Shown: positions 298 to 28,933 of the stretch, piece by piece
Layout of the letters: every line of letters begins with the position of its first letter
How positions within the stretch are numbered: the stretch's first letter is position 1
DNA from: Phascolarctobacterium sp.
Lineage (GTDB): Bacteria; Bacillota; Negativicutes; Acidaminococcales; Acidaminococcaceae
Direction: 5' to 3'
Length of the DNA: 40,645 bases
Assembly (NCBI GenBank): GCA_017467905.1
Contig: JAFUKD010000008.1
Location: 1-40,645, forward strand
Program-made: the position numbers and the translations under genes
Notes under the pieces: model-generated
Database searches by the model: none
Seen by the model: only the letters and a program-made list of their open reading frames with translations
Told to the model about the DNA's origin: nothing

Positions 298-981
298 TCA
301 CTTCATTGCAAATAGCGATTCTTGGTAGTGCTGTGCTGACAACCTTCCTAAGAAAAACAGCTTTTGCCATTTAGAAAGAGCATTATCTTTAAGAGGACGC
401 TTTAGCCATTTAATTTCTAAACTTTGCGGATTAAAGAGTAATAAGCCAACGTTCAGTTCAGTAAACAGTTCCAGTCTTTCTTTCAGTACTTCTTCCTCGT
501 CAAAGGGGCGCACTGCTACGACATAATTTGCAAAGGCTTTGCATAATGTTGACTGCTGTAAGGCACGCTTCCAGTTGGGAGCTTTAATATCAAATGCCCA
601 AATATTATCATTTTCCTGTACAAAGCTTGGTGAAAGAAAGTACAGGTTTTTCTTTTTAAGCAAAAAGTCATTAGCCTTTAGTTCCCGCAAGGTACGGTTA
701 AGCACTGTGTCTACAATGCCTGTTCTCTCTTTGATGTAGTCCTTTGTTCTGCCAGAATTATATTTTAAGATGGATAGAACAAGGCTACCATGCTCCAAGG
801 AAGAAAGTTTGGCGAAGTCATAAGTGCCTATCAATTTTTCGTGAGGGAAGCCAACAAAATCTGCACCGCCTTGCAGCTCGCGGTACACACTCTCGAAGGC
901 AGGAAGCTCTTTTACCAAGGAAGCTTTAAGTAGATGTTCAAAGGCATCTAATGTTTCCTGTTCTAAGTATTCCATTGGCAA
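298..981 (-). CDS. Hypothetical winged-helix plus PDDEXK-nuclease-like protein
   Basis: A 227-residue soluble protein that I cannot name. Residues about 65-115 look like a winged helix (SGRTKDYIKERTG, then a recognition-helix-like stretch and a lysine-rich wing). Residues 127-155 (IWAFDIKAPNWKRALQQ) resemble the core of PDDEXK-like proteins, in which an acidic-x-Lys strand is followed by a W-K-x-A-L-x-Q helix; here that is D131 and K133. A strand-like GLLLFNP segment follows. The start is probably a TTG at 981: GGGAGGAG sits six bases upstream, while the next ATG (975) is too far away. It is monocistronic and points away from tatD's terminator. Role unknown: sequence-specific DNA binding with a degenerate nuclease fold is inference. 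Confidence 0.55.
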   Translation of the reverse strand: MPMEYLEQETLDAFEHLLKASLVKELPAFESVYRELQGGADFVGFPHEKLIGTYDFAKLSSLEHGSLVLSILKYNSGRTKDYIKERTGIVDTVLNRTLRELKANDFLLKKKNLYFLSPSFVQENDNIWAFDIKAPNWKRALQQSTLCKAFANYVVAVRPFDEEEVLKERLELFTELNVGLLLFNPQSLEIKWLKRPLKDNALSKWQKLFFLGRLSAQHYQESLFAMK

Positions 982-1102
982 ATCACTCCTCCCAAAATAA
1001 TCCTTTTGTATATTATATCATCTATGCAGAAATTTTTTTCATTATCTACTACCAAAATTTAAAAAAAGCAAAATCTCCCGCAAGCTTGCCTACGAGAGCA
1101 TA

Positions 1103-1138
1103 TTATAAAAACAGCTCACTCCAAAAGGAATGAGCTGT
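1103..1138 (-). terminator. Rho-independent terminator of the rsmI-metG-tatD operon
   Basis: On the minus strand a 12-bp stem (ACAGCTCATTCC / GGAGTGAGCTGT, one mismatch) with a TTTT loop is followed by TTTTATAA, directly after the tatD stop codon. Confidence 0.8.
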
Positions 1139-1144
1139 TAAAAA

Positions 1145-1924
1145 CTATTTTATTTTTTTGAATAAGCGCCTTACATTGGCAGTGGTCTGTGCCGCCAGTT
1201 CGTCAAACTCCACGCCCAAAACCTCTGCTGCATTGCGAGCAGTCAGTTCCACGTAGCCGGGGTTATTGCGTTTGCCGCGATAGGGTACGGGGGTAAGATA
1301 GGGGCAATCGGTTTCGAAAAGGATAAGATCGCGAGGAACAAACTGCATTACCTCGCGCACCTTTTGCGCATTTTTGTAGGTAGAAGTACCGCCAAAGCCA
1401 AAGTAGTAGCCTCGTTTCGCCAGCTCCTTCGCCATTTCTACAGAACCAGAATAGCAATGGAACACTGCCTCCACGCCAGTTACTTCCTTTTGGAACATTT
1501 CCAGCATATCGCCATGAGCGTCGCGGTCATGGATGATGATGGGCAAATCAAAATGTTTTGCCAGCTCAATCTGCTCCATGAAAACACGCTTCTGTACTTC
1601 CTTGGGCTCGTTTTCCTTCCAGTAGTAGTCAAGGCCAATTTCGCCAATGGCAACTACTTTAGGATGCACAGCCCACGCCGCCAGCATATCCAGATAGTTA
1701 GCAGGCATACCGGTTAAGTTTTCCGGATGCCAGCCTACTGCGGCGTAGATGAAATCATATTTTTCTGCCAGCTCTACGGCAAAGGCACTGCTTTCTACGT
1801 CGCAACCGGGGTTAACGATACCTTCAAGCTCTGCTTGGAGGTTAGTAATCAGCTCATGCCTGTCGCTGGTAAAATAGTCAGAGTCTAAGTGGGCGTGGGA
1901 ATCCCACAATCCTGTTCTGCTCAT
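1145..1924 (-). CDS. tatD: TatD-family metal-dependent DNase
   Basis: 259 residues, the normal length for TatD/YcfH hydrolases (TIM-barrel amidohydrolase fold). The N-terminal metal motif is DSHAHLDS; further metal ligands lie in EIGLDYYW, IIHDRDAH, VFHCYSGS and ETDCPYL. Members are 3'-5' exonucleases acting on DNA, with proposed roles in repair and quality control; D-aminoacyl-tRNA deacylation has also been reported for the wider family. It starts one base after the metG stop, so the two are translationally coupled, as in Bacillus subtilis (metS-yabD). It is the last gene of the operon. Confidence 0.9.
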   Translation of the reverse strand: MSRTGLWDSHAHLDSDYFTSDRHELITNLQAELEGIVNPGCDVESSAFAVELAEKYDFIYAAVGWHPENLTGMPANYLDMLAAWAVHPKVVAIGEIGLDYYWKENEPKEVQKRVFMEQIELAKHFDLPIIIHDRDAHGDMLEMFQKEVTGVEAVFHCYSGSVEMAKELAKRGYYFGFGGTSTYKNAQKVREVMQFVPRDLILFETDCPYLTPVPYRGKRNNPGYVELTARNAAEVLGVEFDELAAQTTANVRRLFKKIK

Positions 1925-12888: not shown

Positions 12889-12921
12889 AATAAAAATAAG
12901 CTGCCCCACGAAAGGCAGCTT
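12889..12921 (-). terminator. Terminator closing the cas9/array transcript
   Basis: Minus strand: AAGCTGCC-TTTCGTGG-GGCAGCTT, a perfect 8-bp stem, then ATTTTTATT. It follows repeat A by four bases, so transcripts that run through cas9 and the mini-array would end here. Confidence 0.85.
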
Positions 12922-12925
12922 GGGA

Positions 12926-13015
12926 ATGTAAGTTTATCAATATCCAACAAGGGACTAAAACAAATAAATACTTTAGTTAAGCATAAGCTTATCAACATCC
13001 AACAGAGACTTTTTC
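12926..13015 (-). CRISPR. Minimal type II-C CRISPR array: two repeats, one 19-nt spacer
   Basis: Read on the minus strand in the direction of cas9: a degenerate repeat B (13015-12981), a 19-nt spacer TTAACTAAAGTATTTATTT (12980-12962), and repeat A (12961-12926). Repeat A begins GTTTTAGTCCCTTGTTGG, the same first 13 bases as I recall for the Campylobacter jejuni II-C repeat, and is 36 nt. Repeat B keeps the core (GTC.CTGTTGGATGTTGATAA) but has lost the GTTTTAG stem. A crRNA of guide plus repeat A would pair with the tracrRNA over a 7-bp lower stem, a U/UU bulge and a 27-bp upper stem. The 19-nt spacer is far shorter than the usual 30 nt. Confidence 0.8.
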
Positions 13016-13025
13016 AAATCACTTC

Positions 13026-15458
13026 TTAATCTTCTTGGGGAAGAATCCCTAACGGCACAAAGCTCTTTACCTCGCCACCAATCCTTCCAAGAATATCAAC
13101 GTCATATTTTTTGAACACGTCCTTTTGCGTTACATAGACATATTCATCCTCTTCAGCATGTACCTTCCTTACATTGAGCAGGTTTCGCGTAACCGCCTTC
13201 ACACTTCTATAAAAGCCTGCGAATTTTTCATTGCCTTTAGCATCACAAATCTTTATATAATCGTTGGGAAAAAGATACATTACATGCTCAAGATAGTTTT
13301 CCGGATAGGGCACTGCTAAATACAGTTTTTTATCCCTCTTTACCAAATCAACATAACGTATTCCCCGCAAGGCAGTACGCTTTTCCCAGTCCTTATAGAT
13401 TTCTACGCAGTAATATTTGCTTGCGCTCAATACTGTTTCGTTACCATATTCATCAAGCTTGACAATGGAGCTTGGCTTACGCTTCTTTTTAGCAAGGGGG
13501 TTATCATCGGTAAACTGTCCTTGAAACTTTTTGTTTTGCTTGTAAGATACCAGCGGCATTTGTAACCCTTCTGCAAAGATAATATTTTTATAACGCTGCT
13601 CATTGCCGGCAGTGCTACTTGCTAAGGCAACAGCATTCACCGCACGAAGAAGCTTTGCGCTATTATTATTTCCCAAATAAGCAAAACAACCGCTTTTTAA
13701 AATCTGCTCACTTATTGTAGAAGCAGTACTGCTTTTAGCAAGATAAACCTTTTTATTTTCACTGCCTGCAAAGTACAGATTATCTTCCAGATAACTTGCA
13801 ATGTAACGGGCAATATATCCTTTGTTCTTTACAGCGACTTCCTTGCGTCCGGCACGGTTAAGCCTTGCCAGCTTTTGCCTTTCCTTAAAGCTAAGCCCTA
13901 CTTCGTCAGCAATTTCTACATTAACATACGCAGGCGAACCATACTTACGGATAATGGCATTAGTAACCTTGCGCACTTCATTGATAAGCTTAAATGCCAC
14001 AACATCCCTGACAAGCTCTTCATCCGTAGCCTTAGTAAAGGCAGGTAAAATTTTTTGCTTCTCTCCTTTATCGACAGAACTTCTCTTTAATAAAAGCCTT
14101 GCCTTGACATTGGTAATAGCTTCGCCACGCAAAAAACATTTGATAACATCCACCATGTAGCGTTCACAAACATCAACAGTACCGCCAAAACTTTTATGCT
14201 GTAGCGCCTTGCACAAGCTATCATTATAACCATTAGCTTTTAAAATACGCTCCCTGCGCTTGGGTGTAATATTTTCGCAAAGAAGTAAGCTCAATTTTTG
14301 CAGCCTTGATGGCGCATCCAAATTAAACTGCTCTTCCGAAAGAAGCTCTGCGTAATCATAACCGCTCTTTTCCAGGCACGTCTTTAAAATTCTTAATGTA
14401 GCAACAGTATCGGCAAGCTTTGCCTTTGACTTTATCTTTCTAACCAGCTTCAAGCCAAAGCCTTTTAAAATTGCTTTAACGCCTCTTTCGCTAATATCCG
14501 CTTCCCGTAGAGCGTAGTCTAAAATTGCCTTCGCTACGTCCTGCGGCAGAATAACCTTATTGTTTTCTTCATTAACATATGTATATTGAGATAGATGGCT
14601 CACCAAAGCATAAACATCACCAATTACAGTAGTCCTAAAAGCGCGCTTTTCTTCTTTATAAAACCTGCACCTGCCTACAGAATCTAAGAAGCTCATAAAC
14701 TTACGCTCCTTATCATTCTCATCACCAGGACCAGATTCAAAATCTCGTTGAGCAAAAACTATCTTGTCACACAAAAAATTGATATTGCCTTCTGTAAGCT
14801 GGTGGTAATACCTAGATTGCGTGTGCAAAATATCTAAAAGTTCCTTCCTAATATATGCACGCTTAATCAAAACGTACCTACCGCTATTCTTATGGTTGTG
14901 GTAATCGGGAAAGCTTGTTTCCGTTTTAAAAGCTTCGTCGTGTAAAACCATATCCGCAACACTGCGGTACTGCCCTGTCTGAAAGCGCTCTTCAAATGCT
15001 GCCAAGCCTGCTTTTACCAAGCCAGCATCCTTAGAGCTAATCTCTTCATTATAATATTCGCTATAACCACGATGATTGCAGATATGAATAAGTGAATTTG
15101 TAATTTCTTCTACAGCAAGCTTTTCAGATAACCCTTTCAGCCGAACGGCAAAAATATTTTGGTCGCCATGCTTTTCCTGCCACAGCCTTAACTGCTCGTC
15201 AGAAACAAAATTTATTTTTTGTAAAAAAGCCTTTACCCGCTCCTTGCGATGAACGCGACGGCGAACCATTCTTCTAAAATTACGATACACCCTGCGCTCA
15301 TGACTCTTGCGTGCTTTGTGGTCGGCAGTTTCGCCACTATCAAAAAACCTTACTCCAAAATCCTCAACACATGCATCAACATTAGAGGTTGGAGCGATAA
15401 CAGCAAAACCTATATAGCCAATACCAATATCTAAACCGATACCATATTTCCTTGTCAT
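13026..15458 (-). CDS. cas9: HNH-less, RuvC-inactivated type II-C Cas9 homologue
   Basis: Numbering is from the longer start at 15464 (812 aa). The likely start is M3 (15458), six bases after GGAGG. RuvC-I: GIGLDIGIGYIGFAVI, Asp12 kept. Arg-rich bridge helix 50-80 (SHERRVYRNFRRMVRRRVHR). REC lobe about 81-490, with HRGY and GRCRFYKEEKRA as in II-C proteins. RuvC-II: YVNVEIADEVG, Glu517 kept. The HNH nuclease should follow, but after a linker of roughly 20 residues the sequence resumes at the post-HNH helix (GYIARYIASYLEDNL). RuvC-III reads LLRAVNAVALA where active Cas9 has HHAxDAxVIA: the catalytic His is Arg607 and the Asp is Asn610 (codons CGT and AAT). The PAM-interacting domain (about 680-812) looks intact up to YDVDILGRIG. 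Active II-C Cas9s have about 980-1100 residues. The 2.4-kb frame is open throughout. No cas1, cas2 or csn2 nearby. It should bind guide RNA and DNA but not cut. Confidence 0.9.
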   Translation of the reverse strand: MTRKYGIGLDIGIGYIGFAVIAPTSNVDACVEDFGVRFFDSGETADHKARKSHERRVYRNFRRMVRRRVHRKERVKAFLQKINFVSDEQLRLWQEKHGDQNIFAVRLKGLSEKLAVEEITNSLIHICNHRGYSEYYNEEISSKDAGLVKAGLAAFEERFQTGQYRSVADMVLHDEAFKTETSFPDYHNHKNSGRYVLIKRAYIRKELLDILHTQSRYYHQLTEGNINFLCDKIVFAQRDFESGPGDENDKERKFMSFLDSVGRCRFYKEEKRAFRTTVIGDVYALVSHLSQYTYVNEENNKVILPQDVAKAILDYALREADISERGVKAILKGFGLKLVRKIKSKAKLADTVATLRILKTCLEKSGYDYAELLSEEQFNLDAPSRLQKLSLLLCENITPKRRERILKANGYNDSLCKALQHKSFGGTVDVCERYMVDVIKCFLRGEAITNVKARLLLKRSSVDKGEKQKILPAFTKATDEELVRDVVAFKLINEVRKVTNAIIRKYGSPAYVNVEIADEVGLSFKERQKLARLNRAGRKEVAVKNKGYIARYIASYLEDNLYFAGSENKKVYLAKSSTASTISEQILKSGCFAYLGNNNSAKLLRAVNAVALASSTAGNEQRYKNIIFAEGLQMPLVSYKQNKKFQGQFTDDNPLAKKKRKPSSIVKLDEYGNETVLSASKYYCVEIYKDWEKRTALRGIRYVDLVKRDKKLYLAVPYPENYLEHVMYLFPNDYIKICDAKGNEKFAGFYRSVKAVTRNLLNVRKVHAEEDEYVYVTQKDVFKKYDVDILGRIGGEVKSFVPLGILPQED

Positions 15459-15477
15459 TGCCATCCTCCAAACTTTG

Positions 15478-15506
15478 TTGACACACTAATTTACAAATGT
15501 TAGAAT
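15478..15506 (+). promoter_or_regulatory. Sigma-70 promoter for the tracrRNA
   Basis: A perfect -35 TTGACA (15478-15483), a 17-bp spacer and -10 TAGAAT (15501-15506). Transcription would start near 15513 and run away from cas9 through both anti-repeats to the terminator at 15698. It sits within the 5' leader of cas9, so the two divergent units share this region. Confidence 0.8.
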
Positions 15507-15512
15507 ACTGAT

Positions 15513-15698
15513 GAACTTAGAGTCATTGTTGTGTAGGTTTATCAACATCCAACAGAGACCACTTATTGCAAACTTGTAAGTTTATCAATATCCAACAAGG
15601 GTTCTAAGATAAGGCCTTATGTGCCGTAGGGTATAGCGGTATCCCGAATAATTCCGCTCTTTGAAAATACAGCCGTTGCACTTCGCAACGGCTTTTTT
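15513..15698 (+). ncRNA. tracrRNA with two anti-repeat segments
   Basis: From the promoter above, the RNA contains anti-repeat C (15533-15560), then anti-repeat D (15576-15610), a nexus-like region and a terminator hairpin. D is identical to the complement of repeat A over 27 bases (15575-15601), then has UU (bulge) and CUAAGAU, which pairs with the GUUUUAG of repeat A: the lower-stem/bulge/upper-stem form needed for Cas9 loading. The next bases, ATAAGGCC...ATGTGCCG, resemble the Neisseria II-C tracrRNA, and AGCGG/CCGCT can form another hairpin. A mature RNA would begin near 15573. C pairs instead with the degenerate repeat B. Confidence 0.85.
15672..15698 (+). terminator. tracrRNA terminator
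   Basis: Perfect 8-bp stem GCCGTTGC-ACTTC-GCAACGGC followed by six T residues. Confidence 0.9.
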
Positions 15699-15896: not shown

Positions 15897-15943
15897 TGGT
15901 GATGATGATTGTCATAATACACCTCTTTAAATAAATTAGCCTC

Positions 15944-15972
15944 TTGTTGTACGTGTAAATACGTGCTATAAT
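15944..15972 (+). promoter_or_regulatory. Promoter/operator of the hicA(vestige)-hicB unit
   Basis: -35 TTGTTG (15944-15949), 17-bp spacer, -10 TATAAT (15967-15972). The spacer holds the dyad ACGT-N6-ACGT within GTACGTGTAAATACGTGC, a plausible operator for the HicB C-terminal DNA-binding domain (inference). Confidence 0.65.
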
Positions 15973-15994
15973 AATTATCACAGGAGGCGATGCA

Positions 15995-16021
15995 GTGAAG
16001 CCGAAAGAACTTATTAAATAA
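15995..16021 (+). pseudogene. hicA: hicA toxin vestige: eight codons and a stop
   Basis: After GGAGGCGATGCA, a GTG start reads MKPKELIK and then TAA. MKPKELI is the usual start of HicA mRNA interferases, which normally continue for about 60 residues with a conserved GSHH catalytic histidine. Here the body is missing and the hicB ribosome binding site (GGAGCTTATTGAT) follows at once. This fits an internal deletion that removed the toxin but kept promoter, start and antitoxin. Confidence 0.7.
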
Positions 16022-16034
16022 GGAGCTTATTGAT

Positions 16035-16430
16035 ATGGAAAAAAGAATTTATCCTGCAATATTTCATAAAGAAGAAGTTGGCTACTCCGTAACCTTTCCT
16101 GACCTTCCCGGTTGCATAACAGAAGGCGATACTTTAGAAGAAGCCTTTACCATGGCACAAGATGCTTTAGGCATTTATCTCTACACCTTAAAAGAAGATA
16201 AAGTAGATTTACCCAAATATGTTGCGCCAGAAGTTTTGATTCTTGATAAAGATAGCTTCATAACCCTTGTTGAATGGGACGAACTGAAGTACCTTAAACG
16301 CACAAGTAATAAATCTGTCAAAAAAACTCTAACAATTCCCGAATGGCTTAACACCAAAGCAGAAGAAGAAAATATTAACTTTAGTCAAACTCTACAAAAA
16401 GCTTTATTAGAACAATTAGAAGAAGCTTAA
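16035..16430 (+). CDS. hicB: HicB-family antitoxin (orphan)
   Basis: 131 residues. N-terminal HicB-like fold: YPAIFHKEEVGYSVTFPDLP then GCITEGDTLEEAFTMAQDAL, the signature of the partly degraded RNase-H-like antitoxin domain that covers HicA. The C-terminus (KKTLTIPEWLNTKAEEENINFSQTLQKAL) is a ribbon-helix-helix DNA-binding domain for autoregulation. It follows the hicA vestige by 13 bases. With its toxin gone it may act only as a repressor or protect against other HicA proteins (inference). Confidence 0.88.
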   Translation: MEKRIYPAIFHKEEVGYSVTFPDLPGCITEGDTLEEAFTMAQDALGIYLYTLKEDKVDLPKYVAPEVLILDKDSFITLVEWDELKYLKRTSNKSVKKTLTIPEWLNTKAEEENINFSQTLQKALLEQLEEA

Positions 16431-16526
16431 CTTCCACTCCCCTGCCTCAATGAAACAACCATTAGTCGCATTAGAACAGGAGGAATTGCTGTGAATAATA
16501 CCATAGAATATAAAGGAGGCTTCCCC

Positions 16527-16706
16527 ATGTCCAAGACAATCTCTCAATCCGAGTACATTCGTAACTACGATGACCTCACCGCCAGACTGGAACTCTATGA
16601 CGAACTCAAAAAAGGCTTAGATGATATCGAAGCAGGTAGAGTTCATTCTGAAGAAGAAGTTAATGCCATGCTAGATGCTATGTTCGAAGGATATAACTTA
16701 AAATGA
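16527..16706 (+). CDS. Antitoxin of the ParE/RelE-type module
   Basis: About 59 residues from the ATG at 16527 (GGAGG seven bases upstream); an in-frame GTG at 16491 also has GGAGG at good spacing and would add 12 residues. Sequence: MSKTISQSEYIRNYDDLTAR, then LELYDELKKGLDDIEAGRVHSEEEVNAMLDAM. The last part (KKGLDDIEAGRVHSEEEV) is the toxin-wrapping tail seen in RelB/Phd-like antitoxins of ParE toxins. Its stop overlaps the toxin start by four bases (ATGA), the usual coupling. The same tail is found again fused to the toxin. Confidence 0.75.
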   Translation: MSKTISQSEYIRNYDDLTARLELYDELKKGLDDIEAGRVHSEEEVNAMLDAMFEGYNLK

Positions 16707-17296
16707 TATATACCATCAAATACTCTACAACTTCAAAACATGATCTTCAAAAAACTGTAGATTATATCAACAATGTTCTTCAAAATCATTTTGCAGGAAA
16801 TAGGTTACGTATCAAAATACAATCAACAATCAAAAATCTAAAAACATTCCCTCACAAATATCCTCTTATCGACGACCTAATGCTAACTCCGTATAAAATT
16901 AGGTTTTTTCCAATAAAAAATTATCTGCTCTTCTACACAATCATAGAAGAAACTAAAACAATATACATCATTCGCTTCTTGTACTCTCGTAGAAACTGGC
17001 AACATATTTTACAACACACTGTCCAATATGACGAATATCTTTCACAAAACACTGGTGGCTACGTCCATGAAGAGCAAGAAGAATACGGTAAGCAATTCAA
17101 AAAGGGGCCAACATCTATGACAGAAAGCCCAATCACAGCAAACGATAACATAGAATTTGACGAAGACATTGCTCGCCAAGAACTACTTAACGAACTACAA
17201 AAAGGTCTCGATGATATCAAAGCAGGTCGCACAATTCCAGCAGAAGAAGTATATGTAAAACTCGCCAAAAAATTTGAAGAATATGATTTCGAATGA
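16703..17296 (+). CDS. ParE/RelE-family toxin fused to a second antitoxin domain
   Basis: 197 residues. Residues 1-105 are a RelE/ParE-superfamily toxin (YSTTSKHDLQKTVDYINNVL, then LMLTPYKIRFFPIKNYLLFY, TKTIYIIRFLYSRRNWQHIL). Such toxins normally stop near residue 105-115. Here the frame continues through an acidic linker into MTESPITANDNIEFDED and LLNELQKGLDDIKAGRTIPAEEVYVKLAKKF (139-197), which closely matches the tail of the separate upstream antitoxin. AAAGGGG before the in-frame ATG at 17117 could give the tail as a separate protein. So either a stop codon between toxin and a second antitoxin was lost, or this is a self-neutralising fusion. Confidence 0.8.
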   Translation: MIYTIKYSTTSKHDLQKTVDYINNVLQNHFAGNRLRIKIQSTIKNLKTFPHKYPLIDDLMLTPYKIRFFPIKNYLLFYTIIEETKTIYIIRFLYSRRNWQHILQHTVQYDEYLSQNTGGYVHEEQEEYGKQFKKGPTSMTESPITANDNIEFDEDIARQELLNELQKGLDDIKAGRTIPAEEVYVKLAKKFEEYDFE

Positions 17297-17305: not shown

Positions 17306-18484
17306 TTACTCCCCTACCTCAACGGTTTGGGAGTTTTTATTTTCCTTATACACTTCTTTAATAACTGCATCCCACTTGTTCCAAATCACTTCTGGTGCAT
17401 AACACTTCATATCTTCCCTAGCATTACTACCATATTTTAATCTCAGGTTATAATCTGACATCAATTTACTCAAAGCTTCTGAGAAAGAATTTATGCTTGC
17501 TTCACATAAAATACCATTATGTCCATCTTTAATAATTTCATTTACCGCTGGACAATTTCTAAAGCCAACACTAGCCAATCCCATACTCATCGCCTCAGTT
17601 AGAGCTAAAGGAAATCCTTCAAACGCTGAAGGAAATGCAAAGATAGATGCTTCTTTGAGTTTACTCACTATATCATTTGTAGTACCACAAAATTTAATGT
17701 TTTTTAGTTTATTTTTTCTGATGAATTCTTGCATACTATCAAAATACTCTTTATCCAAATGTGTTTCCCCATAAATTTCTACCTGCCAATCAGGGTACCT
17801 ACTTGCTATTTTCGCAAAAGCTTCTATTAAAATATGCTGTCTTTTTTGCAAAGGACATACTCTTCCTACTGTAATAATAGTTTTTGTTTCTAAATCTGAA
17901 TGTTTGTCATATTGAGGAACAACATTAGGAATAGTCACAAATTTCTTAGCATTTATATACTGGGATGTTATAACTACATCTCTATCCAATAACGTTTGTA
18001 TACATTCAGTCTCTTTAAGTGCAGAAAGCGATAATTTATTGTCATTAATAATATGCTCAGCATTAAAGTGATACATTGTAATTACGGGCTTGCTTGTTCT
18101 TACGAAGTTTTTTAATATGGCAGTCCCTTCAACAGTAAAACTAATTATTACATCTGGATTTATTTGTGATAAATATGGTCTAATCTTTTCGGCTATCCTT
18201 TTGTTTTTATAGTTATATCTTTTAATATGTCTATTATGTTTGCTTATTGAAAACAGTGCTATAAAATTGTTTATTAAGTTATGAGAATTAAATCCTATAC
18301 CTGCATTAATCAATTCAACTCTACTATCTAAAGGAAAAAATGGTTTTCCTTTTTTATTTTCAAATATCAAAGCAGTTACTTCATATCCCAAGTTCACCAA
18401 AGCATTCGCCATATTGCAAAACACTTTTTCTGTTCCACCTTTTGCATCTATAACCCTGAACGTATCATAAAGTAAAACCTTCAT
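17306..18484 (-). CDS. GT4-family glycosyltransferase
   Basis: 392 residues, GT-B fold, retaining GT4 type. N-terminal acceptor domain (GGTEKVFCNMANALVNLGYEV); C-terminal nucleotide-sugar domain with TVGRVCPLQKRQHILIEAFA and the E-x7-E region FAFPSAFEGFPLALTEAMSM. No signal peptide. It transfers a hexose from a nucleotide sugar to a surface glycan; the sugar is unknown. Closely related in sequence to the GT4 gene at 21617-22771, suggesting an old duplication. It is the last gene of the cluster and is more AT-rich than the genes upstream. Confidence 0.88.
   Translation of the reverse strand: MKVLLYDTFRVIDAKGGTEKVFCNMANALVNLGYEVTALIFENKKGKPFFPLDSRVELINAGIGFNSHNLINNFIALFSISKHNRHIKRYNYKNKRIAEKIRPYLSQINPDVIISFTVEGTAILKNFVRTSKPVITMYHFNAEHIINDNKLSLSALKETECIQTLLDRDVVITSQYINAKKFVTIPNVVPQYDKHSDLETKTIITVGRVCPLQKRQHILIEAFAKIASRYPDWQVEIYGETHLDKEYFDSMQEFIRKNKLKNIKFCGTTNDIVSKLKEASIFAFPSAFEGFPLALTEAMSMGLASVGFRNCPAVNEIIKDGHNGILCEASINSFSEALSKLMSDYNLRLKYGSNAREDMKCYAPEVIWNKWDAVIKEVYKENKNSQTVEVGE
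17308..17344 (+). terminator. Terminator of the toxin-antitoxin operon, inside the 3' end of the GT4 gene
   Basis: Stem ACTCCC / GGGAGT with a 15-base loop, then TTTTTATTTT on the plus strand. It overlaps the last codons of the convergent GT4 gene. Confidence 0.6.
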
Positions 18485-18637
18485 ACCTGTTTATCCTTTC
18501 AAATATTTATAAGCATCCTACTTTAATTTATGGTAAAAGCTAAAAAACTCTACGCCTTCAACGAAACAAACAATATGCTACTTATTTCTACACAATAAAA
18601 AGATTTTCACATCACTTATTACTCGATTTTTTCTTAG

Positions 18638-19406
18638 TCATATTCCTATTGCATCAATAAATTTTTGACAAATTTGTTTTTTAAGCTTAACCTCATCTTC
18701 CAACATTATCGTCTTAGCTTCTAAAATCCTGTAATCTTTATCATGTAACCAGACATTGAAAAGCCTTTCGCTTAGGAAACCAAAGATCCTAGATTGATAA
18801 GCATCATAAGTACTAATATCAACTATCTTTTCAAGTTCAAACAATATCGCAAATAGCCATTGACAATAGTCAGATAAAATATTTTTTCTTGTAACAAACA
18901 TATTTGTAAAATATCCTGAGTTAGAATTCATTACTAAATCAAAACTCAAAAGATACTCTGGAGTTTTTGCCTGTATAATGTCTCTTACTTTCAATAAATC
19001 ATTTGCATAATGTGATGATGCATATTGTTCTCCTAAGGTACAATCTTCAAAACTCATTTTTCTAGGAAGTAAAATATCGCAATCACACAAAAGTTTTTCG
19101 TAATCGCTTTTTTTTGAAAATCTGTTCTTTTTCCTCTCTTATATAAGTTAAAAAATTACTGCTTTTTCCAAAATATCTTCTATAATGACATAACCCTATA
19201 TACTCACAATCCAAATTTTTCCATGCCCAATACAAGCCTGTCAGTTCACAGTAACTAGCATTCTTGTCAGAAATATTATCACCAGTATTATCACCCATAT
19301 AACCTAAATCTTCTTTGCCATCTCTACCTACATGTAACGGCAAATATACTTCATCTTCTGGCATCCAATATTTCTTATGTGTTGCTACCAAAATTTTAAT
19401 ATCCAT
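18638..19406 (-). pseudogene. DUF4422 glycosyltransferase-like gene split by a one-base shift in an A8 tract
   Basis: The N-terminal frame (start M at 19406, after GGAAAGTGAG) gives MDIKILVATHKKYWMPEDE, then LYWAWKNLDCEYIGLCHYRRYFG, typical of DUF4422 proteins linked to capsule and O-antigen loci. The C-terminal frame (18638-19090) continues the family: LCDCDILLPRK, VMNSNSGYFTNMFVTRK, YDAYQSRIFGFLSERLFNVWL. The frames would join if the run of eight A on the coding strand (plus-strand T8 at 19108-19115) were seven, giving FKKSDYEKLLCDCD and about 255 residues. This could be a true pseudogene, a phase-variable tract or a sequencing error. Confidence 0.8.
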
Positions 19407-19553
19407 AAATCTCACTTTCCAAGTTAATATAAAATTATTTTTAACTCTAAAATCATAGCATTTTAAAGAATTTGTACTTCAAACTTTAAATATTTATCCT
19501 TTCATCAACAACTAACTATATACAAGTTAGTTGCACAGCAATTAATACTATTT

Positions 19554-20456
19554 TCAAAGCTCTTCTAATATTTTTTTGAAAGAATGCTTCGTAGAAATTA
19601 TTACTGCACCATGTGAACTAGATACTTGCTTAGGAATTATGTAGTCCTTACCATAACATAGGGTTAAAATTTGATGATAATCTTTCGGAACCGGCAATTT
19701 CATTCCTTCAAATTCCATCAAACATACTTCACTGTACCATTTTCTTTTTTGCCTAATACAATCTTCAGCACTATTTCTAAACATCAATATTTCAACATCT
19801 TCACTATCACTATATCTTTTTGCAATTTCTTCGAAAGCACAATACTGTTCTTTAACGCTACCGAAAATAAATGATACAAGTTTTGCCCTCACTGTTCTCC
19901 ATACCTTTCTAAAAGAACTACCCTTATTTCTATATGCAATGTAACGCATTTTTCTTTTTATATTTTGCATTTCATGAAACTGCTCTTGTAATAACTGCAT
20001 ATCATTTACCAATCCATCCAATATAAAAATATCTAAAAATACACCTTGATTAAATTCCACAACCTTTGCTTCATGAGGTAACATCATACATGTTTTAGTA
20101 TTTCTCAATTGCAGATGTCCCCTCATATAGTTTTTATCAGTATAGGCGGATTGCAATAAATACACGTCCTTGAATTCCTTTTCTGAAATACTTAATAATT
20201 TTTCATAATCATCACGGAAAATAACAATGTCTATATCATCATCCCAGGGAATAAACCCCCTGTGTCTTACCGCACCAAGTAGAGTCCCATATGCCAGGAA
20301 ATACTTAATATTGTATTTTTTGCATACTTCATCAAACTTCGCCAAAAGATCCAACTCAACAGCCCATAATTTTTTTATATCACTAGTTACTAGATATCCA
20401 TCTCTGTATTCTTCATCAAAAAAAACGTCTCCTAAGGCAAGTCTTATCGGTAGCAT
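19554..20456 (-). CDS. LicD-family phosphotransferase
   Basis: About 300 residues from the ATG at 20456 (GGAGG six bases upstream). LicD proteins, first known for attaching phosphocholine to surface glycans, belong to the nucleotidyltransferase fold. The signature is complete: YFLAYGTLLGAVRHRGFIPW followed by DDDIDIVIFRDDY, in which the WDDDIDI acidic residues bind metal. The C-terminal KWYSEVCLMEFEGMKLPVPK and LCYGKDY match the family. Likely decorates the polysaccharide built by this cluster. It lies 26 bases downstream of glf. Choline need not be the substrate. Confidence 0.9.
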   Translation of the reverse strand: MLPIRLALGDVFFDEEYRDGYLVTSDIKKLWAVELDLLAKFDEVCKKYNIKYFLAYGTLLGAVRHRGFIPWDDDIDIVIFRDDYEKLLSISEKEFKDVYLLQSAYTDKNYMRGHLQLRNTKTCMMLPHEAKVVEFNQGVFLDIFILDGLVNDMQLLQEQFHEMQNIKRKMRYIAYRNKGSSFRKVWRTVRAKLVSFIFGSVKEQYCAFEEIAKRYSDSEDVEILMFRNSAEDCIRQKRKWYSEVCLMEFEGMKLPVPKDYHQILTLCYGKDYIIPKQVSSSHGAVIISTKHSFKKILEEL

Positions 20457-20482
20457 TATTATCCTCCAATCATCAACTGACA

Positions 20483-21601
20483 CTAATCATTCAGTTCCTT
20501 CTCCACTAATTTCAGCGCACTGTCAATTACAGCGTCCATATCATAATATTTGTACTCGCCCAAGCGTCCGCCAAAGATAACTTTGCTTTCTACTTCAGCA
20601 AGTTTCTTGTATTCTGCATAAAGCTTGCTGTTACGTTCATCATTAACTGGATAGTAAGGTTCGTCCCCTACTTTCCACTCACTACTGTACTCTCTACTGA
20701 TTACAGTCTTAGGCAAATCGTTACCTGCTTCATCTTTACCAAACTCAAACCATTTATGCTCAATGATTCTTGTCCAAGGAGTTTCTCTATCCGTATAGTT
20801 CACTGCAGCATTACCTTGGAAGTTTGGTTTATCAAGCACTTCGTTTTCAAAACGCACGCTTCTGTATTCTAAGTTGCCAAGCTTGTAATCAAAGTAAGCA
20901 TCAATGGCACCGGTATAAATTACTTTGTCAGCAAGCTTATCCAGCTCTTCTTTATTTTCTAAGTAGTCAACTCCCAAGCGCACTTCAATACCATCAAGCA
21001 TATTAGCAACCATTTTGGTATAACCACCAATAGGTATGCCTTGGTATAATGCGTTAAAGTAGTTGTTATCAAAAGTCAGACGTACAGGCAAACGGGTAAT
21101 GATAAATGCAGGCAGCTCTGTACATGGTCTTCCCCACTGCTTTTCCGTATAGCCTTTAATAAGTTTTTCATAAATGTCAGTACCTACTAAGGAAATTGCC
21201 TGTTCTTCTAAATTTTTCGGCTCACTAATTCCGGCTTTATGCTTTTGTTCTTCAATCTTAGCCTCTGCTTCTTCCGGAGTTACTACGCCCCACATTTTAT
21301 TGAAGGTGTACATATTAAAAGGCAAGCTAAATAATTCTCCTTTGTAATTTGCAACAGGAGAATTGGTGAAGCGGTTAAACTCTGCAAATTTAGTAACGTA
21401 ATCCCAAACATGTTTCAAATTAGTATGAAAGATATGTGCACCATAGATATGCACGTTAATGCCTTCTATTTTTTCAGTGTAGACGTTACCGGCAATGTTG
21501 TTGCGCTTGTCGATAACCAAAACCATTTTGCCTTTAGCCTTTGCTTGCTGTGCAAACACAGCACCAAATAAACCACTGCCAACTACTAAATAATCGTACA
21601 T
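20483..21601 (-). CDS. glf: UDP-galactopyranose mutase
   Basis: About 372 residues from the ATG at 21601 (GAGG six bases upstream). It converts UDP-galactopyranose to UDP-galactofuranose through a flavin adduct. The FAD Rossmann motif is YDYLVVGSGLFGAVFAQQAK; further signatures are HIYGAHIFHTN, YTEKQWGRP and PVNDERNSKLYAEYKKLA. Its presence implies galactofuranose in the surface glycan. Confidence 0.95.
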   Translation of the reverse strand: MYDYLVVGSGLFGAVFAQQAKAKGKMVLVIDKRNNIAGNVYTEKIEGINVHIYGAHIFHTNLKHVWDYVTKFAEFNRFTNSPVANYKGELFSLPFNMYTFNKMWGVVTPEEAEAKIEEQKHKAGISEPKNLEEQAISLVGTDIYEKLIKGYTEKQWGRPCTELPAFIITRLPVRLTFDNNYFNALYQGIPIGGYTKMVANMLDGIEVRLGVDYLENKEELDKLADKVIYTGAIDAYFDYKLGNLEYRSVRFENEVLDKPNFQGNAAVNYTDRETPWTRIIEHKWFEFGKDEAGNDLPKTVISREYSSEWKVGDEPYYPVNDERNSKLYAEYKKLAEVESKVIFGGRLGEYKYYDMDAVIDSALKLVEKELND

Positions 21602-21616
21602 GCTATACCTCATGTT

Positions 21617-22771
21617 TTATAACAACAAGATTATATTTTCCCACTGCTTATAAATTACTCCATCATCCCATTTCTTCATATCCCATCTTCCCCGCATCCC
21701 ATAAACACCTCTTAACTCCTCATTATTAATCAATATTTCCAATGCTTTAGCAAAATTTTCAGCACCATCATCACAGAGTATTCCATTTACTCCGTCAACA
21801 ATTAATTCATTTACTGCAGGACAGCTTTTGAACCCAATTACAGGTAAACCCATACTCATTGCTTCTGCTAATCCTAAGCCAAATCCCTCAAAAGCAGATG
21901 GAAAAGCAAAGATAGATGCCTTTCGTAATTTGCTTGGTACGTCATTTGTTTTTCCCATAAGAAAAACTTGACGCTCTAAGCCATACTTCTTTATTAAGCC
22001 TTTTAATTTATCCTCATAGCTTTTGGGCTGACTGTCTCCACCCCAAAACTCTACTTTCCAATCAGGATACTTATGGGCAATTTTTGCAAAAGCTTCTATT
22101 AATAAATGTTGTCTTTTTTGGGCCCCATCTAACCTACCAACATGTATTATGATATTTTCCTTTTCAATAGAATTAGCAACTTCATATTGAGGTACTACAT
22201 TACCAATGTGTACAACCTTTTGATAACCTCGTTTTAATAAATGTTCTCTATCCGAATTCATTAAAACTTGTACACACCCTACTTTTCTTAAAACTTCTTC
22301 TTGTTTGTTACTTAACGAATTTAAAATATTTACTGTTGTTGAGTGAAACATCACTATCACTTTATTTAAGTCATAACCACATTCTTCAACAGCTACCATA
22401 GACCTCATTTCATAACAGATAACAACATCTGGCTGAATAGTATCTATGTAATTTTTCAACCTTCCATTAATTTGTTGCCTTACAAATTTTTCACGAGGAA
22501 ATTCTATCTTTCCACCACTTTGCTTCACTACCCTTGCAAGTTCATTTTTAATTTTTACTACAAATGGTATTTTTAGTTTTTGTCCTCCTGTAAGGTTATA
22601 AAACTTTACAGAAGAATCCAGTTTATAAAAAGGTTCACCATCAATCCCATCACAACAAACATCAAACACTTGATGTTCTTTGCAAAAATGATTACTCATA
22701 TTACAATAGACTTTTTCAACACCACCTGCACTATTTATGATAGGAGTAAAACAAATCTGCATTATCTTCAT
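21617..22771 (-). CDS. GT4-family glycosyltransferase
   Basis: 384 residues, GT-B/GT4. N-terminal GGVEKVYCNMSNHFCKEHQV; C-terminal IIHVGRLDGAQKRQHLLIEA and FAFPSAFEGFGLGLAEAMSM with the E-x7-E motif. GGGGA precedes the ATG. It shares its plan and many exact stretches (QKRQHLLIEAFAKIA, FAFPSAFEGF, GFKSCPAVNE) with the GT4 gene at 17306-18484. Lies 15 bases upstream of glf, in the same operon. Confidence 0.9.
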   Translation of the reverse strand: MKIMQICFTPIINSAGGVEKVYCNMSNHFCKEHQVFDVCCDGIDGEPFYKLDSSVKFYNLTGGQKLKIPFVVKIKNELARVVKQSGGKIEFPREKFVRQQINGRLKNYIDTIQPDVVICYEMRSMVAVEECGYDLNKVIVMFHSTTVNILNSLSNKQEEVLRKVGCVQVLMNSDREHLLKRGYQKVVHIGNVVPQYEVANSIEKENIIIHVGRLDGAQKRQHLLIEAFAKIAHKYPDWKVEFWGGDSQPKSYEDKLKGLIKKYGLERQVFLMGKTNDVPSKLRKASIFAFPSAFEGFGLGLAEAMSMGLPVIGFKSCPAVNELIVDGVNGILCDDGAENFAKALEILINNEELRGVYGMRGRWDMKKWDDGVIYKQWENIILLL

Positions 22772-22786
22772 TTCAGTAAAATCCCC

Positions 22787-23749
22787 TTACTTTAACTTCT
22801 TACTCCACATTGACAGCTTTCCATAAACCGTATTAATCAAGTGGCAGTTTTTAGCTCCCCAAAGCAATAACTTGTTTTTGCCGCTCAGGAATTTAACGTC
22901 ACCAACATTATCTAAAAAGTTTTTCAAGACTTTCTTGTCTTCTGCTTTTATGCTCCCGCATCCGACACTTTCAGCAGTAATTGCAGAAAGCGCTGTTTTC
23001 ACTGCAAACATTTTGCATTTATCTACTGCGTCCTTACAATGTACTTGGGCAAATTCATAACGTTCTTTGTAGCCTAAGAAATTTTCAAATCTACGTTGCG
23101 CATCAAAAGACAACGCAATGGCACTGCCTTCTCTTTTCAAATAATAGTAGAAGGCTTTTTTCATATAACCAACCTTGGCAGAGTTATGAAAAGTTTTGTA
23201 GATAGTTGCAACATCTTCAAAACGTCTGCCAACAGGAAAGCGTACTCCTTCCCAAACAGTTTTCTTATAAACCTTGTTGCAAGGGGAATTGTCGATAATA
23301 TCTACTAAGATATTTTTTAAGGCAGTTTGTCCATCCATAACTTTATCTTCATTAAATCTAAAGCTTGCAGAACATTTACTGCCTTTTACTTCGTAAACTT
23401 CAAAACAAGCAACATCCAATTCGTTTTGGTCTACGAAGCTAAAAAGTTTTTCGTACATATCCAAATCAACCCAGTCATCGGGATCAATAAATGAAATGTA
23501 TTCTCCTTTTGCTTCATCAATGCCTAGATTTCTAGCCTGGCTTACGCCACCATTCTCTTTATGGATAACTCTTACCCTTTTATCCTTGGCAGCGTATTCA
23601 TCACAAATCTTACCGCAGTTATCCGGTGAACCATCGTCAACAAGGATGAGCTCAAAATCTGTAAAGCTTTGGTTCAAGATGGAATCCACGCATTTATGAA
23701 TATACTGTTCTACTTTATATACAGGCACTATGATAGAAAGTTTAGGCAT
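22787..23749 (-). CDS. GT2-family glycosyltransferase
   Basis: About 320 residues from the ATG at 23749 (GAGGAAAAG upstream). GT-A fold: PKLSIIVPVYKVEQYIHKCV, SILNQSFTDFELILVDDGS, then the metal-binding DxD-type motif in YISFIDPDDWVD and the EDVATIYK region. It resembles EpsJ/CpsO-like transferases of exopolysaccharide loci. No membrane segments, so it acts at the cytoplasmic face. Its start overlaps the preceding GT2 gene's end by a few bases. Confidence 0.88.
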   Translation of the reverse strand: MPKLSIIVPVYKVEQYIHKCVDSILNQSFTDFELILVDDGSPDNCGKICDEYAAKDKRVRVIHKENGGVSQARNLGIDEAKGEYISFIDPDDWVDLDMYEKLFSFVDQNELDVACFEVYEVKGSKCSASFRFNEDKVMDGQTALKNILVDIIDNSPCNKVYKKTVWEGVRFPVGRRFEDVATIYKTFHNSAKVGYMKKAFYYYLKREGSAIALSFDAQRRFENFLGYKERYEFAQVHCKDAVDKCKMFAVKTALSAITAESVGCGSIKAEDKKVLKNFLDNVGDVKFLSGKNKLLLWGAKNCHLINTVYGKLSMWSKKLK

Positions 23750-24497
23750 GTTTCTTTTCCTCATCTATAAGTTTTAACTTTATATATTTGTTTAAGGTAT
23801 AATTAGCGTAGTTAAGACACAACACAAAACCAAGCCATCCTTCCAAAAAACCTAACTTCAAAACATACATCTTGATAAAGGCAAAGAACGGTCTAAAGAC
23901 AAAGTCTCTGATTACGCTAACCTTTTTGTTTTTAGCTTTATTATTTTGCGCGCCAATGGCGGCATAGGAATTCATTTTGCTTAGGTACTGGCTAAAGTCT
24001 TTGTAAGTATAGTGTTGAATAAATCCCTGTAAAGTTTTTACGGGCAAGTCCCCTACTGGTCTTTCATGTACTTTTCCTTCCCATTTAACCAAGCCTAACG
24101 GAAACATTCTTACAACGCTATCCGGACCTAAAACTCCGTATTTAAACTCTCTGCCAAAAGCACTGTTTCTTCTAATAAAACGATACATCGCCTTGTGTGG
24201 AGCTTGCATTTCTTTTTTTATAGCACTGGCAAGCTCATCGTTAATGCGTTCATCTGCATCAAGGTACAATACCCATTCGGTATCAACATGCTCTAAAGCA
24301 AAGTTGCGCTGTGCGGCAAAGTCATTATCCCACGCACGATAAACCACTTTCGCACCATTTGCTTCAGCAAGTTCCACAGTTCTATCCGTACTGCCGGAAT
24401 CTACTACCAAAATTTTTTCTGTAACCTTGTAGGCATTTTCAATAACTTCTACAATATTTTTCTCTTCGTTTTTTGTTAAGACAACAACGGTAAGCAT
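23742..24497 (-). CDS. GT2-family glycosyltransferase of the WaaE/KdtX type
   Basis: 251 residues. MLTVVVLTKNEEKNIVEVIE, VDSGSTDRTVELAEANGAKV, then ERINDEL preceded by the DADE metal motif (LYLDADERI), and HERPVGDLPVKTLQGFIQHY near the C-terminus. This is the pattern of beta-1,4-glucosyltransferases that add glucose to the LPS inner core and of related proteins. First gene of the glycan operon; a promoter lies at 24621-24648. Supports a diderm envelope. Confidence 0.85.
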   Translation of the reverse strand: MLTVVVLTKNEEKNIVEVIENAYKVTEKILVVDSGSTDRTVELAEANGAKVVYRAWDNDFAAQRNFALEHVDTEWVLYLDADERINDELASAIKKEMQAPHKAMYRFIRRNSAFGREFKYGVLGPDSVVRMFPLGLVKWEGKVHERPVGDLPVKTLQGFIQHYTYKDFSQYLSKMNSYAAIGAQNNKAKNKKVSVIRDFVFRPFFAFIKMYVLKLGFLEGWLGFVLCLNYANYTLNKYIKLKLIDEEKKHA

Positions 24498-24620: not shown

Positions 24621-24648
24621 ATTATAGCACCCTTGTCCCCCCCGTAAA
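24621..24648 (-). promoter_or_regulatory. Promoter of the surface-glycan operon
   Basis: Minus strand: -35 TTTACG (24648-24643), 16-bp G-rich spacer, -10 TATAAT (24626-24621), giving a start near 24613. Confidence 0.55.
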
Positions 24649-26643: not shown

Positions 26644-27645
26644 TTATTTTACAGCTTTTTTGAGAACATCTTCGGGAATGGTCAAACCAATTTTTTTAGC
26701 ATTGTCTTCATTAATAACAATGTTAAACTCTGTTTGTGCCTGAATGGGCATATCTGCCGGCTTGGACTTGCCACTTAAAATATCTGCTGCCATACTGCCA
26801 GTTTGTACGCCCAATTTATAATAGTCAATACCAAAGGTAGCTACGCCGCCACTTTTTACAGAACCGGCATCACCGCAAATAACAGGAAGGTTTACTTCCT
26901 CGGTAATAATAGCCAAGGCAGGAATTGCAGAAGCCAGTACGTTATCAGTAGGAACATAAATAAGGTCAACCTTGCCCAGCATGCTGCGAGCTGCCTGCTG
27001 AATATCATTTACATTATTAACAGTTGCTTCAATAATACCTACGCCCTTTTTCTTAGCAGCGTCTTTTAGGATTTCTACTTGGAATTGAGAATTGACTTCG
27101 CTGGAATTATAAATGGTGCCAATGTTTTTCGCACCGGGAACAAGCTTCAAGGCAAAATCCAACTGCTCAATTACAGGGTTCATATCTGTTGTGCCGGTTA
27201 CATTGGTTCCCGGTTTAACATTATCCTTAATAAGCTTTGCAGCCTTGTAATCTGTTACCGCAGTTGCAACTATGGGAATATCCTGAGTAGCACTTGCCAC
27301 AACCTGTGCTGCAGGAGTGGAGATAGCGCAAATCAAATCAACCTTGTTATTTATAAAATGATGGGCAATATTGTGCATATTGGATTGGTCTGCCTGTGCA
27401 TTTTGTCTGTCAAAGGTAATGTTTTCTCCTTCTTTAAAGCCTTTAGCAGCCAAACCATCTACAAAGCCCTTGCTTGCAGCGTCAAGTGCGGCGTGCTCTA
27501 CGATTTGCACAATGCCTACACTAACCTTTTCTTTTTTTGCAGCTTCCTTCTTTTCACCGCCACAACCAGTCATCAAACCCATTGCCAAGGTGAGCATGAT
27601 GCCTGCCGTCAACATCTTTAACTTTCCACGCTTCAAATTAAGCAT
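26644..27645 (-). CDS. ABC substrate-binding lipoprotein (copy 1, next to permease)
   Basis: About 334 residues from the ATG at 27645 (GGAAGGATGG upstream). Lipoprotein signal: basic N-terminus, MLTAGIMLTLAMGLMTGCGG with the lipobox LMTGC. The mature part is the ABC_sub_bind family (PF04392), two-lobed: VSVGIVQIVEHAALDAASKG, ICAISTPAAQVVASATQDIP, GTTDMNPV, IYVPTDNVLASA. The same operon as the permease. Closely similar to the next two genes. Confidence 0.9.
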   Translation of the reverse strand: MLNLKRGKLKMLTAGIMLTLAMGLMTGCGGEKKEAAKKEKVSVGIVQIVEHAALDAASKGFVDGLAAKGFKEGENITFDRQNAQADQSNMHNIAHHFINNKVDLICAISTPAAQVVASATQDIPIVATAVTDYKAAKLIKDNVKPGTNVTGTTDMNPVIEQLDFALKLVPGAKNIGTIYNSSEVNSQFQVEILKDAAKKKGVGIIEATVNNVNDIQQAARSMLGKVDLIYVPTDNVLASAIPALAIITEEVNLPVICGDAGSVKSGGVATFGIDYYKLGVQTGSMAADILSGKSKPADMPIQAQTEFNIVINEDNAKKIGLTIPEDVLKKAVK

Positions 27646-27770
27646 AAACGTCCATCCTTCCATTCTATAAGACAACATATTTGCCTTGTATTAAATCTAC
27701 GGATGATTTCATTGTATTATTTTTCCTCGAAATTGTAAACAAAAATTAGTTTTTTAGAAAAATTTGCTAA

Positions 27771-27804
27771 ACAAAAAGGCACGAAGCTTTAAACCTCGCG
27801 CCTT
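27771..27804 (-). terminator. Terminator or attenuator after binding protein copy 2
   Basis: Minus strand: AAGGCGCGAGGTTT / AAGCTTCGTGCCTT imperfect stem followed by TTTTGTT. It lies between copies 2 and 1, so copy 1 with permease and ATPase probably has its own transcription as well. Confidence 0.65.
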
Positions 27805-27824
27805 CTTGCAAATAAGTTTAAAAA

Positions 27825-28826
27825 TTATTGCTTAGCTTTTTTAAGAACTGCTTCCGGAATGGTCAAGCCAATTTTTTTAGCGCCTTCAAGATTTACGATA
27901 ATGTCAAAGTCTTTTTGAGCTTGGATTGCCATATCAGCAGGTTTAGATTTGCCATTCAAAATATCTGCTGCCATTTCGCCGGTTTGTACGCCCAGTTTAT
28001 AGTAGTCAACGCCAAGAGTTGCCAAGCCGCCAGCTTTAACCATGCCGCCTTCACCGCAGATAACCGGAAGTTTTGCTTCTTCAGTTACCATAATCAAAGT
28101 GGGCATTGCAGATGCCAGTACGTTATCAGTGGGAACATAAATTGCATCAACTTGACCAACCAAGCTGCGAGCTGCTTGTTGAATATCGTTTACAGTAGAA
28201 ACAGTTGCTTCTTTAATTTCTACCTTTTTAGCTGCTGCTGCTTTTTTGAGAATGTCAACTTGCAATTGAGAGTTAACTTCGCTGGAGCAGTAGATAGTGC
28301 CAATAGCTTTAGCACCCGGAACTAATTGCAAAGCCAAGTCAAGCTGTGCTTCTACAGGGTTCATATCTGTAGTGCCGGTTACGTTGGTACCGGGTTTAGC
28401 GTTGTCCTTTACAAGTTTTGCTGCTTCGTAATCGGTAATAGCAGTGCCAACGATGGGAATATCTTTAGTAACATTAGCTACGGTTTGCGCAGCCGGAGTA
28501 GCAATAGCGCAAATCAAATCAACTTTGTTATTGGTAAAACGATGTGCAATGTTTTGCAGGTTGGATTGGTCTGCTTGTGCATTTTGTCTATCAAAGGTAA
28601 TATTTTGACCTTCTTTAAAGCCTTTGGAAGCCAGGCCATCAACGAAGCCTTTGTTAGCAGCGTCAAGAGCAGCGTGTTCAACCAATTGTACGATGCCTAC
28701 ATTAACTTTTTCTTTTTTGGCAGCTTCTTTCTTTTCGCCGCCGCAACCAGCCATAAGACCCATTGCCAAAGTAAGCATTACGCCTGCGGTCAACATTTTA
28801 AATTTTTTGCTTTTCAAGGTAATCAT
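27825..28826 (-). CDS. ABC substrate-binding lipoprotein (copy 2)
   Basis: About 333 residues from the ATG at 28826 (GGAAGGGAA upstream). Lipobox LMAGC in MLTAGVMLTLAMGLMAGCGG. Same PF04392 layout as its neighbours: NVGIVQLVEHAALDAANKGF, ICAIATPAAQTVANVTKDIP, GTTDMNPVEAQLD, YVPTDNVLASAMPTL. It differs from copy 1 mainly in the hinge and pocket (for example CGEGGMVKAGGLATLGVDYY), which may change ligand choice. A promoter is visible at 28854-28881. Confidence 0.9.
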   Translation of the reverse strand: MITLKSKKFKMLTAGVMLTLAMGLMAGCGGEKKEAAKKEKVNVGIVQLVEHAALDAANKGFVDGLASKGFKEGQNITFDRQNAQADQSNLQNIAHRFTNNKVDLICAIATPAAQTVANVTKDIPIVGTAITDYEAAKLVKDNAKPGTNVTGTTDMNPVEAQLDLALQLVPGAKAIGTIYCSSEVNSQLQVDILKKAAAAKKVEIKEATVSTVNDIQQAARSLVGQVDAIYVPTDNVLASAMPTLIMVTEEAKLPVICGEGGMVKAGGLATLGVDYYKLGVQTGEMAADILNGKSKPADMAIQAQKDFDIIVNLEGAKKIGLTIPEAVLKKAKQ

Positions 28827-28853
28827 AATAAATTCCCTTCCTTCCATACTACA

Positions 28854-28881
28854 ATTCTACCTGTGGACTTGCCTTCCACAA
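28854..28881 (-). promoter_or_regulatory. Promoter of binding-protein copy 2
   Basis: Minus strand: -35 TTGTGG (28881-28876), 16-bp spacer containing the dyad TGGA...TCCA, -10 TAGAAT (28859-28854). Confidence 0.5.
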
Positions 28882-28933
28882 TTTATTAGGATGATTACAT
28901 TTTAGTCTTTTTACAACAAAAAGTAAACTACTA

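Follow-up and report, generated by a model that had tools for sequence, protein, structure and literature searches.

TldR is an RNA-guided nuclease that was inactivated in evolution, has been kept under selection, and lies beside surface-structure genes, namely, flagellin (PMC13418256). Phages carry crippled type II-C2 Cas9 proteins with a dead RuvC domain, which lack a clustered regularly interspaced short palindromic repeat (CRISPR) array and have a trans-activating CRISPR RNA (tracrRNA) nearby (PMC12669027, PMC10910872). In the CreA RNA, the mini-array has a first repeat that is more diverged than the second (PMC9458426), while in the scaRNA and tracr-L systems, Cas9 regulates genes by means of an RNA encoded outside the CRISPR array (PMC13431127, PMC11417352). 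A term search of the main text of the 2025 classification yielded a sole variant of this sort, a phage variant that is RuvC dead and HNH active, and we found no description, in the open-access literature, of a natural Cas9 that lacks both nucleases; the limited scope makes this weak evidence of absence. Here we describe such a protein, encoded on the minus strand at positions 13026 to 15458 of a 40,645-nucleotide stretch of Phascolarctobacterium sp. (assembly GCA_017467905.1, contig JAFUKD010000008.1, positions 1 to 40,645; hereafter the window). Together with its paralogues, it is probably a type II-C-like Cas9 exapted as a non-cutting, RNA-guided DNA binder, i.e., a natural counterpart of catalytically dead Cas9 (dCas9) that would act in natural CRISPR interference (CRISPRi).

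Judged from its sequence, the dead Cas9 resembles TldR in kind, CreA and CreR in RNA layout, and the phage II-C2 Cas9 in its crippling and is a member of none of these groups. TldR has a RuvC-only TnpB scaffold, a single guide RNA, and a known target, whereas the present locus, set beside polysaccharide genes, has a Cas9 scaffold, a CRISPR RNA (crRNA), and a tracrRNA; a TnpB origin is excluded for the window's copy by Cas9 homology over its whole length. The phage proteins are HNH active and phage borne, with no guide of their own reported, while the dead forms described here are HNH-less and chromosomal and have conserved mini-arrays. CreA and CreR belong to type I and V-A systems with active effectors (PMC9458426, PMC12737573), in contrast to a type II system with a dead effector, and the Cas9s used by scaRNA and tracr-L still cut with normal crRNAs, unlike the dedicated dead Cas9 found here. 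The nearest cutting relatives are the full-length type II-C Cas9s of two genomes (G004 and G039), which share 49 to 51% protein identity with it in the main alignment, the plan of a tracrRNA with two anti-repeats, and a related 36-nt repeat. These relatives have HNH, RuvC-III, and arrays of 8 to 12 spacers, whereas the dead forms have a two-repeat mini-array only. Among the criteria for type II, a tracrRNA complementary to the repeat is present, and a multispacer array and cas1/cas2 are not.

A clade of Cas9 proteins without intact nuclease sites

The open frame from the first ATG spans 13026 to 15464 on the minus strand (812 amino acids [aa]). The ATG at 15458 is the better start, giving 810 aa, since a GGAGG at 15465 to 15469 lies 6 nt before it and touches the earlier ATG (ribosome-binding site and start, 15456 to 15469, minus strand); residues are numbered here from the ATG at 15464. 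The original prediction, made from the sequence alone, was that a frame of more than 800 codons starting at 15458 had lost both cutting sites and kept the parts that bind the guide and the protospacer-adjacent motif (PAM), and the alignment and profile searches agreed with it in each respect. RuvC-I Asp12 and RuvC-II Glu517 are retained, and the RuvC-III His and Asp are replaced by Arg607 and Asn610. The HNH domain is missing, with a short linker in its place in the alignment with a 1,050-aa relative (49 to 51% identity), and the arginine-rich bridge helix, REC, and the PAM-interacting C terminus remain. Neither HNH_4 nor RuvC_III of Pfam matched this protein at an E value of ≤10, while a full-length Cas9 control (G004) matched both (3.6e-15 and 3e-12, respectively). 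The NCBIfam Cas9 model TIGR01865 matched residues 7 to 542 only, which cover RuvC-I, the bridge helix, and REC (253 bits against a cutoff of 100); PADLOC also called the protein Cas9, and solved type II Cas9s matched it with E values down to 1e-33.

The source genome (G000; 1.84 Mb, 41 contigs), from a gut bacterium, encodes three HNH-less Cas9 copies, the one in the window (A, 810 aa) and two others (B, 751 aa; C, 787 aa), in addition to a single distant, full-length Cas9 (28% identity) whose repeats are of an unrelated kind. The congener Phascolarctobacterium sp. RGIG3958 (G003, 89% complete) carries B2 and C2, the respective orthologues of B and C; neither an orthologue of A nor the neighbor gene of the A site was found in it. 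Two further congeners (G001 and G002) have no dead cas9 gene, and the rest of the family examined has full-length Cas9s only. The five dead forms make up one clade (bootstrap, 100), separate from full-length relatives and with A nearest to B, and HNH is missing from all five by alignment and Pfam but present in three full-length controls. Thus, because the paralogues and the orthologues are likewise HNH-less, the loss in A is not the isolated deletion that the original prediction had named as speaking against it.

Catalytic damage differs among the copies: B keeps the RuvC-I Asp and has RuvC-II Glu changed to Ala, C has RuvC-I Asp changed to Glu and RuvC-II Glu to Gly, and RuvC-III is deleted from both, along with most of the RuvC-II/III scaffold. 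Despite this separate damage, the bridge helix arginines, REC, and the C-terminal domain are well preserved across the clade, and the loss of scaffold in B and C would be compatible with DNA binding. The earlier claim that loss is limited to catalysis therefore stands for A and fails for B and C. IsrB, presented in PMC9581776 as a natural HNH-less nickase, offers a precedent for a residual RuvC nickase, and the retention of Asp12 and Glu517 in A could be read in this way. That reading is scarcely credible, since the RuvC-III His and Asp are gone from A, RuvC-III as a whole and the RuvC-II Glu are gone from both B and C, and in C the RuvC-I Asp has become Glu.

The ratio of nonsynonymous to synonymous divergence (dN/dS) was 0.228 for the B pair and 0.209 for the C pair, compared with 0.226 for a pair of active Cas9s and 0.065 to 0.098 for neighboring core genes. 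In both orthologue pairs, amino acid-changing differences per site were fewer than silent ones (P = 5e-44 and 1e-24). None of the five dead genes, each 2.25 to 2.4 kb long, has an internal stop; in simulated unconstrained drift at 0.1 to 0.6 substitutions per site, 8 to 28 stops arose on average and not one of 300 runs stayed clean. The unequal loss of catalytic parts among A, B, and C and the absence of the genes from two congeners would fit decaying remnants, HNH-less genes en route to loss. Simple decay is, however, strongly disfavored, and we give this explanation very little credence, because the dN/dS of both pairs equals that of the active pair, the five genes are free of stops, and conservation of the mini-arrays described below exceeds that of silent sites, pointing to purifying selection on protein and mini-array alike. 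The original prediction had likewise pointed to the missing signature of decay and had named a dN/dS near 1 as the result that would speak against it.

One tracrRNA and conserved mini-arrays

A divergently oriented tracrRNA with two anti-repeats lies upstream of copy A and follows the plan of the active relatives. Its predicted promoter, TTGACA-17-TAGAAT (15478 to 15506, plus strand), is proposed by consensus match only (11 of 12 positions, with TG before the second hexamer). It is followed on the same strand by anti-repeat AR1 (15531 to 15560), anti-repeat AR2 with the lower-stem partner of GTTTTAG (15575 to 15610), and a nexus, tail, and terminator (15611 to 15698) resembling those of the active relatives' tracrRNAs. 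A two-repeat mini-array lies downstream of all five dead cas9 genes, consisting of a repeat (R1), a spacer of about 13 to 20 nt, and a second repeat (R2). In A, on the minus strand, these are the degenerate R1 at 12981 to 13007, the spacer or putative guide CTTAACTAAAGTATTTATTT at 12962 to 12981, and the well-preserved R2 GTTTTAGTCCCTTGTTGGATATTGATAAACTTACA, complementary to AR2, at 12927 to 12961, with a terminator hairpin at 12898 to 12921. In all five copies, GTTTTAG is lost from the 5′ end of R1 and retained in R2 (as A/GTTTTAG), the R1 core CTCTGTTGGATGTTGATAAGCTTATGC is kept with one variable position, and the spacer ends in the 8-mer TATTTATT followed by T or A. The best pairing partner of R1 is AR1. 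An Rfam search returned no match. R1 and a −10 element might together set a 10-nt guide, but the spacing differs among copies.

The source genome contains eight copies of this repeat in all, accounted for by three mini-arrays and one tracrRNA, and no true array of it elsewhere; inspection of the neighboring open reading frames, which are core or island genes, showed no cas1/cas2. Since there is a single tracrRNA of this type, B and C must use the A-side tracrRNA in trans. Predicted R2:AR2 pairing within each own genome is −48 to −52 kcal/mol, compared with −40.5 kcal/mol for an active repeat with its own tracrRNA, and R1 favors the AR1 of its own genome, by a small margin for B with the G000 tracrRNA. 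Furthermore, repeat and anti-repeat of C carry matching changes at unlinked loci (R2/AR2, CCC/GGG in G000 and CCT/AGG in G003; R1/AR1, GATG/CATC in G000 and GATA/TATC in G003). The mini-arrays of B and B2 are identical at 67 of 68 positions, against 18 of 47 nearby 4-fold sites (P = 8e-14), and those of C and C2 at 70 of 74, against 41 of 56 (P = 9e-4).

The guide RNAs and the paralogues go beyond the original prediction, which mentioned neither. Its proposal of selection for RNA-guided binding gains strong support as far as selection and intact, conserved guide RNAs are concerned, while DNA binding, repression, and the target are what we infer from them. Pairing of repeat and anti-repeat that is tighter than in the active relative, together with retention of RNA-binding parts and loss of nuclease parts, would also suit a decoy that sequesters an active Cas9's crRNA or tracrRNA, comparable to the phage II-C2 Cas9 with dead RuvC (PMC10910872). 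We find this quite improbable: the source genome lacks both an active Cas9 and an array with this repeat type, its other Cas9 using unrelated repeats; the gene is chromosomal, with core genes around it, and no viral homologue was found in IMG/VR; and the dead Cas9 has its own conserved guide element.

Surface-polysaccharide islands

Each dead cas9 copy sits at the downstream end of a same-strand surface-polysaccharide cluster. In the window, this cluster (glycosyltransferases, LicD, and UDP-galactopyranose mutase; 17306 to 24497, minus strand) lies upstream of dead cas9, with a predicted promoter, TTTACG-16-TATAAT, at 24621 to 24648 (minus strand) that has a tract of seven G's in its spacer; the island promoter of the sister species G003 has eight G's and a 17-bp spacer. 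A tract of G7 or G8 between −35 and −10, with 16- or 17-bp spacing, is seen in three islands with a readable start (24621 to 24648, minus strand; L045, approximately 2340 to 2370; L056, approximately 1393 to 1420), and the tract is probably a slippage-driven, phase-variable switch. In G001 and G002, the two insertion sites compared among congeners are empty, lysA adjoining a decarboxylase gene at the A site and glyS adjoining priA at the B site; therefore, the island and the dead cas9 that borders it were gained, or lost, together.

Synonymous divergence (dS) along B and B2 climbs from 0.27 at the 5′, island side to 1.16 at the 3′, core side, which suggests island exchange with breakpoints inside dead cas9. 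Such a rise, expected from exchanged island-side segments, would also be seen if dead cas9 mainly served to anchor, by homology, the exchange of polysaccharide islands. An anchor of this kind needs neither protein-level constraint nor conserved RNA pairing, and we consider it very improbable as the main role of the gene.

Other features of these regions include, in the interval separating dead cas9 from the island (15940 to 17296, plus strand), the remains of a hicA start, a gene for a HicB-like antitoxin, and one for a probable ParE-like toxin; related modules adjoin B2 and C2 in G003. The first glycosyltransferase gene of the G000 B island has one in-frame TAA (L056, approximately 518 to 1270, minus strand), and three closely similar genes for ABC transporter substrate-binding lipoproteins stand in tandem at 26644 to 30103 (minus strand) of the window.

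Search for targets and proposed function

In the mechanism that we propose for RNA-guided binding, the mini-array RNA would come either from a promoter of its own or from the tail of the dead-cas9 mRNA and would pair with the single tracrRNA, R2 with AR2 and R1 with AR1, the latter possibly allowing RNase III to release the 5′ end. The dual RNA would then be loaded into dead Cas9, the short constant guide ending in UAUUUAUU would direct it to chromosomal DNA, and the bound protein would block transcription.

Several results weigh against this proposal. No convincing target site was found for the guides in G000 or G003; the 20-nt A guide had, beyond its own locus, a single match with ≤3 mismatches, and these fell in the seed. 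The 10-mer pattern RTATTTATTW was scarcely more frequent than its reversed control (53 versus 47 sites in G000; 65 versus 64 in G003). Searches of phages, IMG/VR, and family genomes for protospacers of the active relatives' spacers gave only those relatives' own arrays and chance-level matches, and since no protospacer was found, no PAM could be derived. In addition, AlphaFold with two sequences gave no confident fold (predicted local distance difference test score, 32), the matching repeat and anti-repeat changes could reflect pairing or gene conversion between copies, and the dead forms are known from two species only, both with draft genomes.

Individual candidates fared as follows. The last 10 nt of the A guide, GTATTTATTT, have 14 sites in G000, and RTATTTATTW has 118 across both species, with recurrent families in a surface protein 5′ region (ATATTTATTACAAAGCTTC) and in a repeated element with TGTTTCACGTGAAACA; we claim neither family as a target, because the total of sites was not clearly above the reversed-pattern control. 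The island promoter was also set aside, as the 8-nt seed match (P = 0.06 to 0.10) that the A and B islands of G000 have at the −10 is missing from the G003 island. The best orthologous single site lies upstream of an aminotransferase-like gene (L175 and L159) and matches the C/C2 guide over 11 to 12 nt; it is not significant alone. Nevertheless, a short match may suffice for dead Cas9, because TldR, a phage-borne RNA-guided repressor, functions with guides down to 6 nt (PMC13418256).

The searches also brought out two repeated features. One is a dispersed intergenic element in which TGTTTCACGTGAAACA, a parS-like sequence, precedes a conserved AT-rich block, in several copies (L180, L190, L191, and L034 in G000; L125 in G003). 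The other is a set of paralogous secreted or surface proteins (MSKKMLKRSLALGALMAFVITGSAMA) whose 5′ regions, a hairpin included, are nearly identical, in at least six copies in G000 (L105, L113, L115, L186, L188, and L192) and also in G003 (L109, L112, L114, L145, and L148).

The best lead to a target is the occurrence of GTATTTATTT in the −10/start region of the tracrRNA of each active relative (P = 0.0035 in either case by shuffling, uncorrected for some 10 regions). This raises an alternative in which dead Cas9 is an autoregulator like CreR or tracr-L, its guide having in the past matched the promoter of the tracrRNA at an active ancestral locus and the circuit, or a relic of it, having been kept. 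We regard this as unlikely: the tracrRNA promoters that now flank A and C2 match the 3′ end of the guide over ≤4 nt, and the active relatives are other species without a mini-array of this kind. Under RNA-guided binding to the chromosome, which we favor, the occurrence of three dead Cas9s, one per island, with one trans-acting tracrRNA raises a more specific idea, possible but on balance doubtful: that natural CRISPRi selects or silences surface coat clusters, as a Cas9-based antigen switch linked to polysaccharide expression.

dCas9 is usually regarded as a product of the laboratory. If the proposed function is correct, this family would show exaptation into an RNA-guided binder to be possible for Cas9 as for TnpB. 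It would also provide compact, naturally evolved dead Cas9s of about 750 to 810 aa together with their natural RNAs, and it makes testable how much of the nuclease lobe can go without loss of binding.
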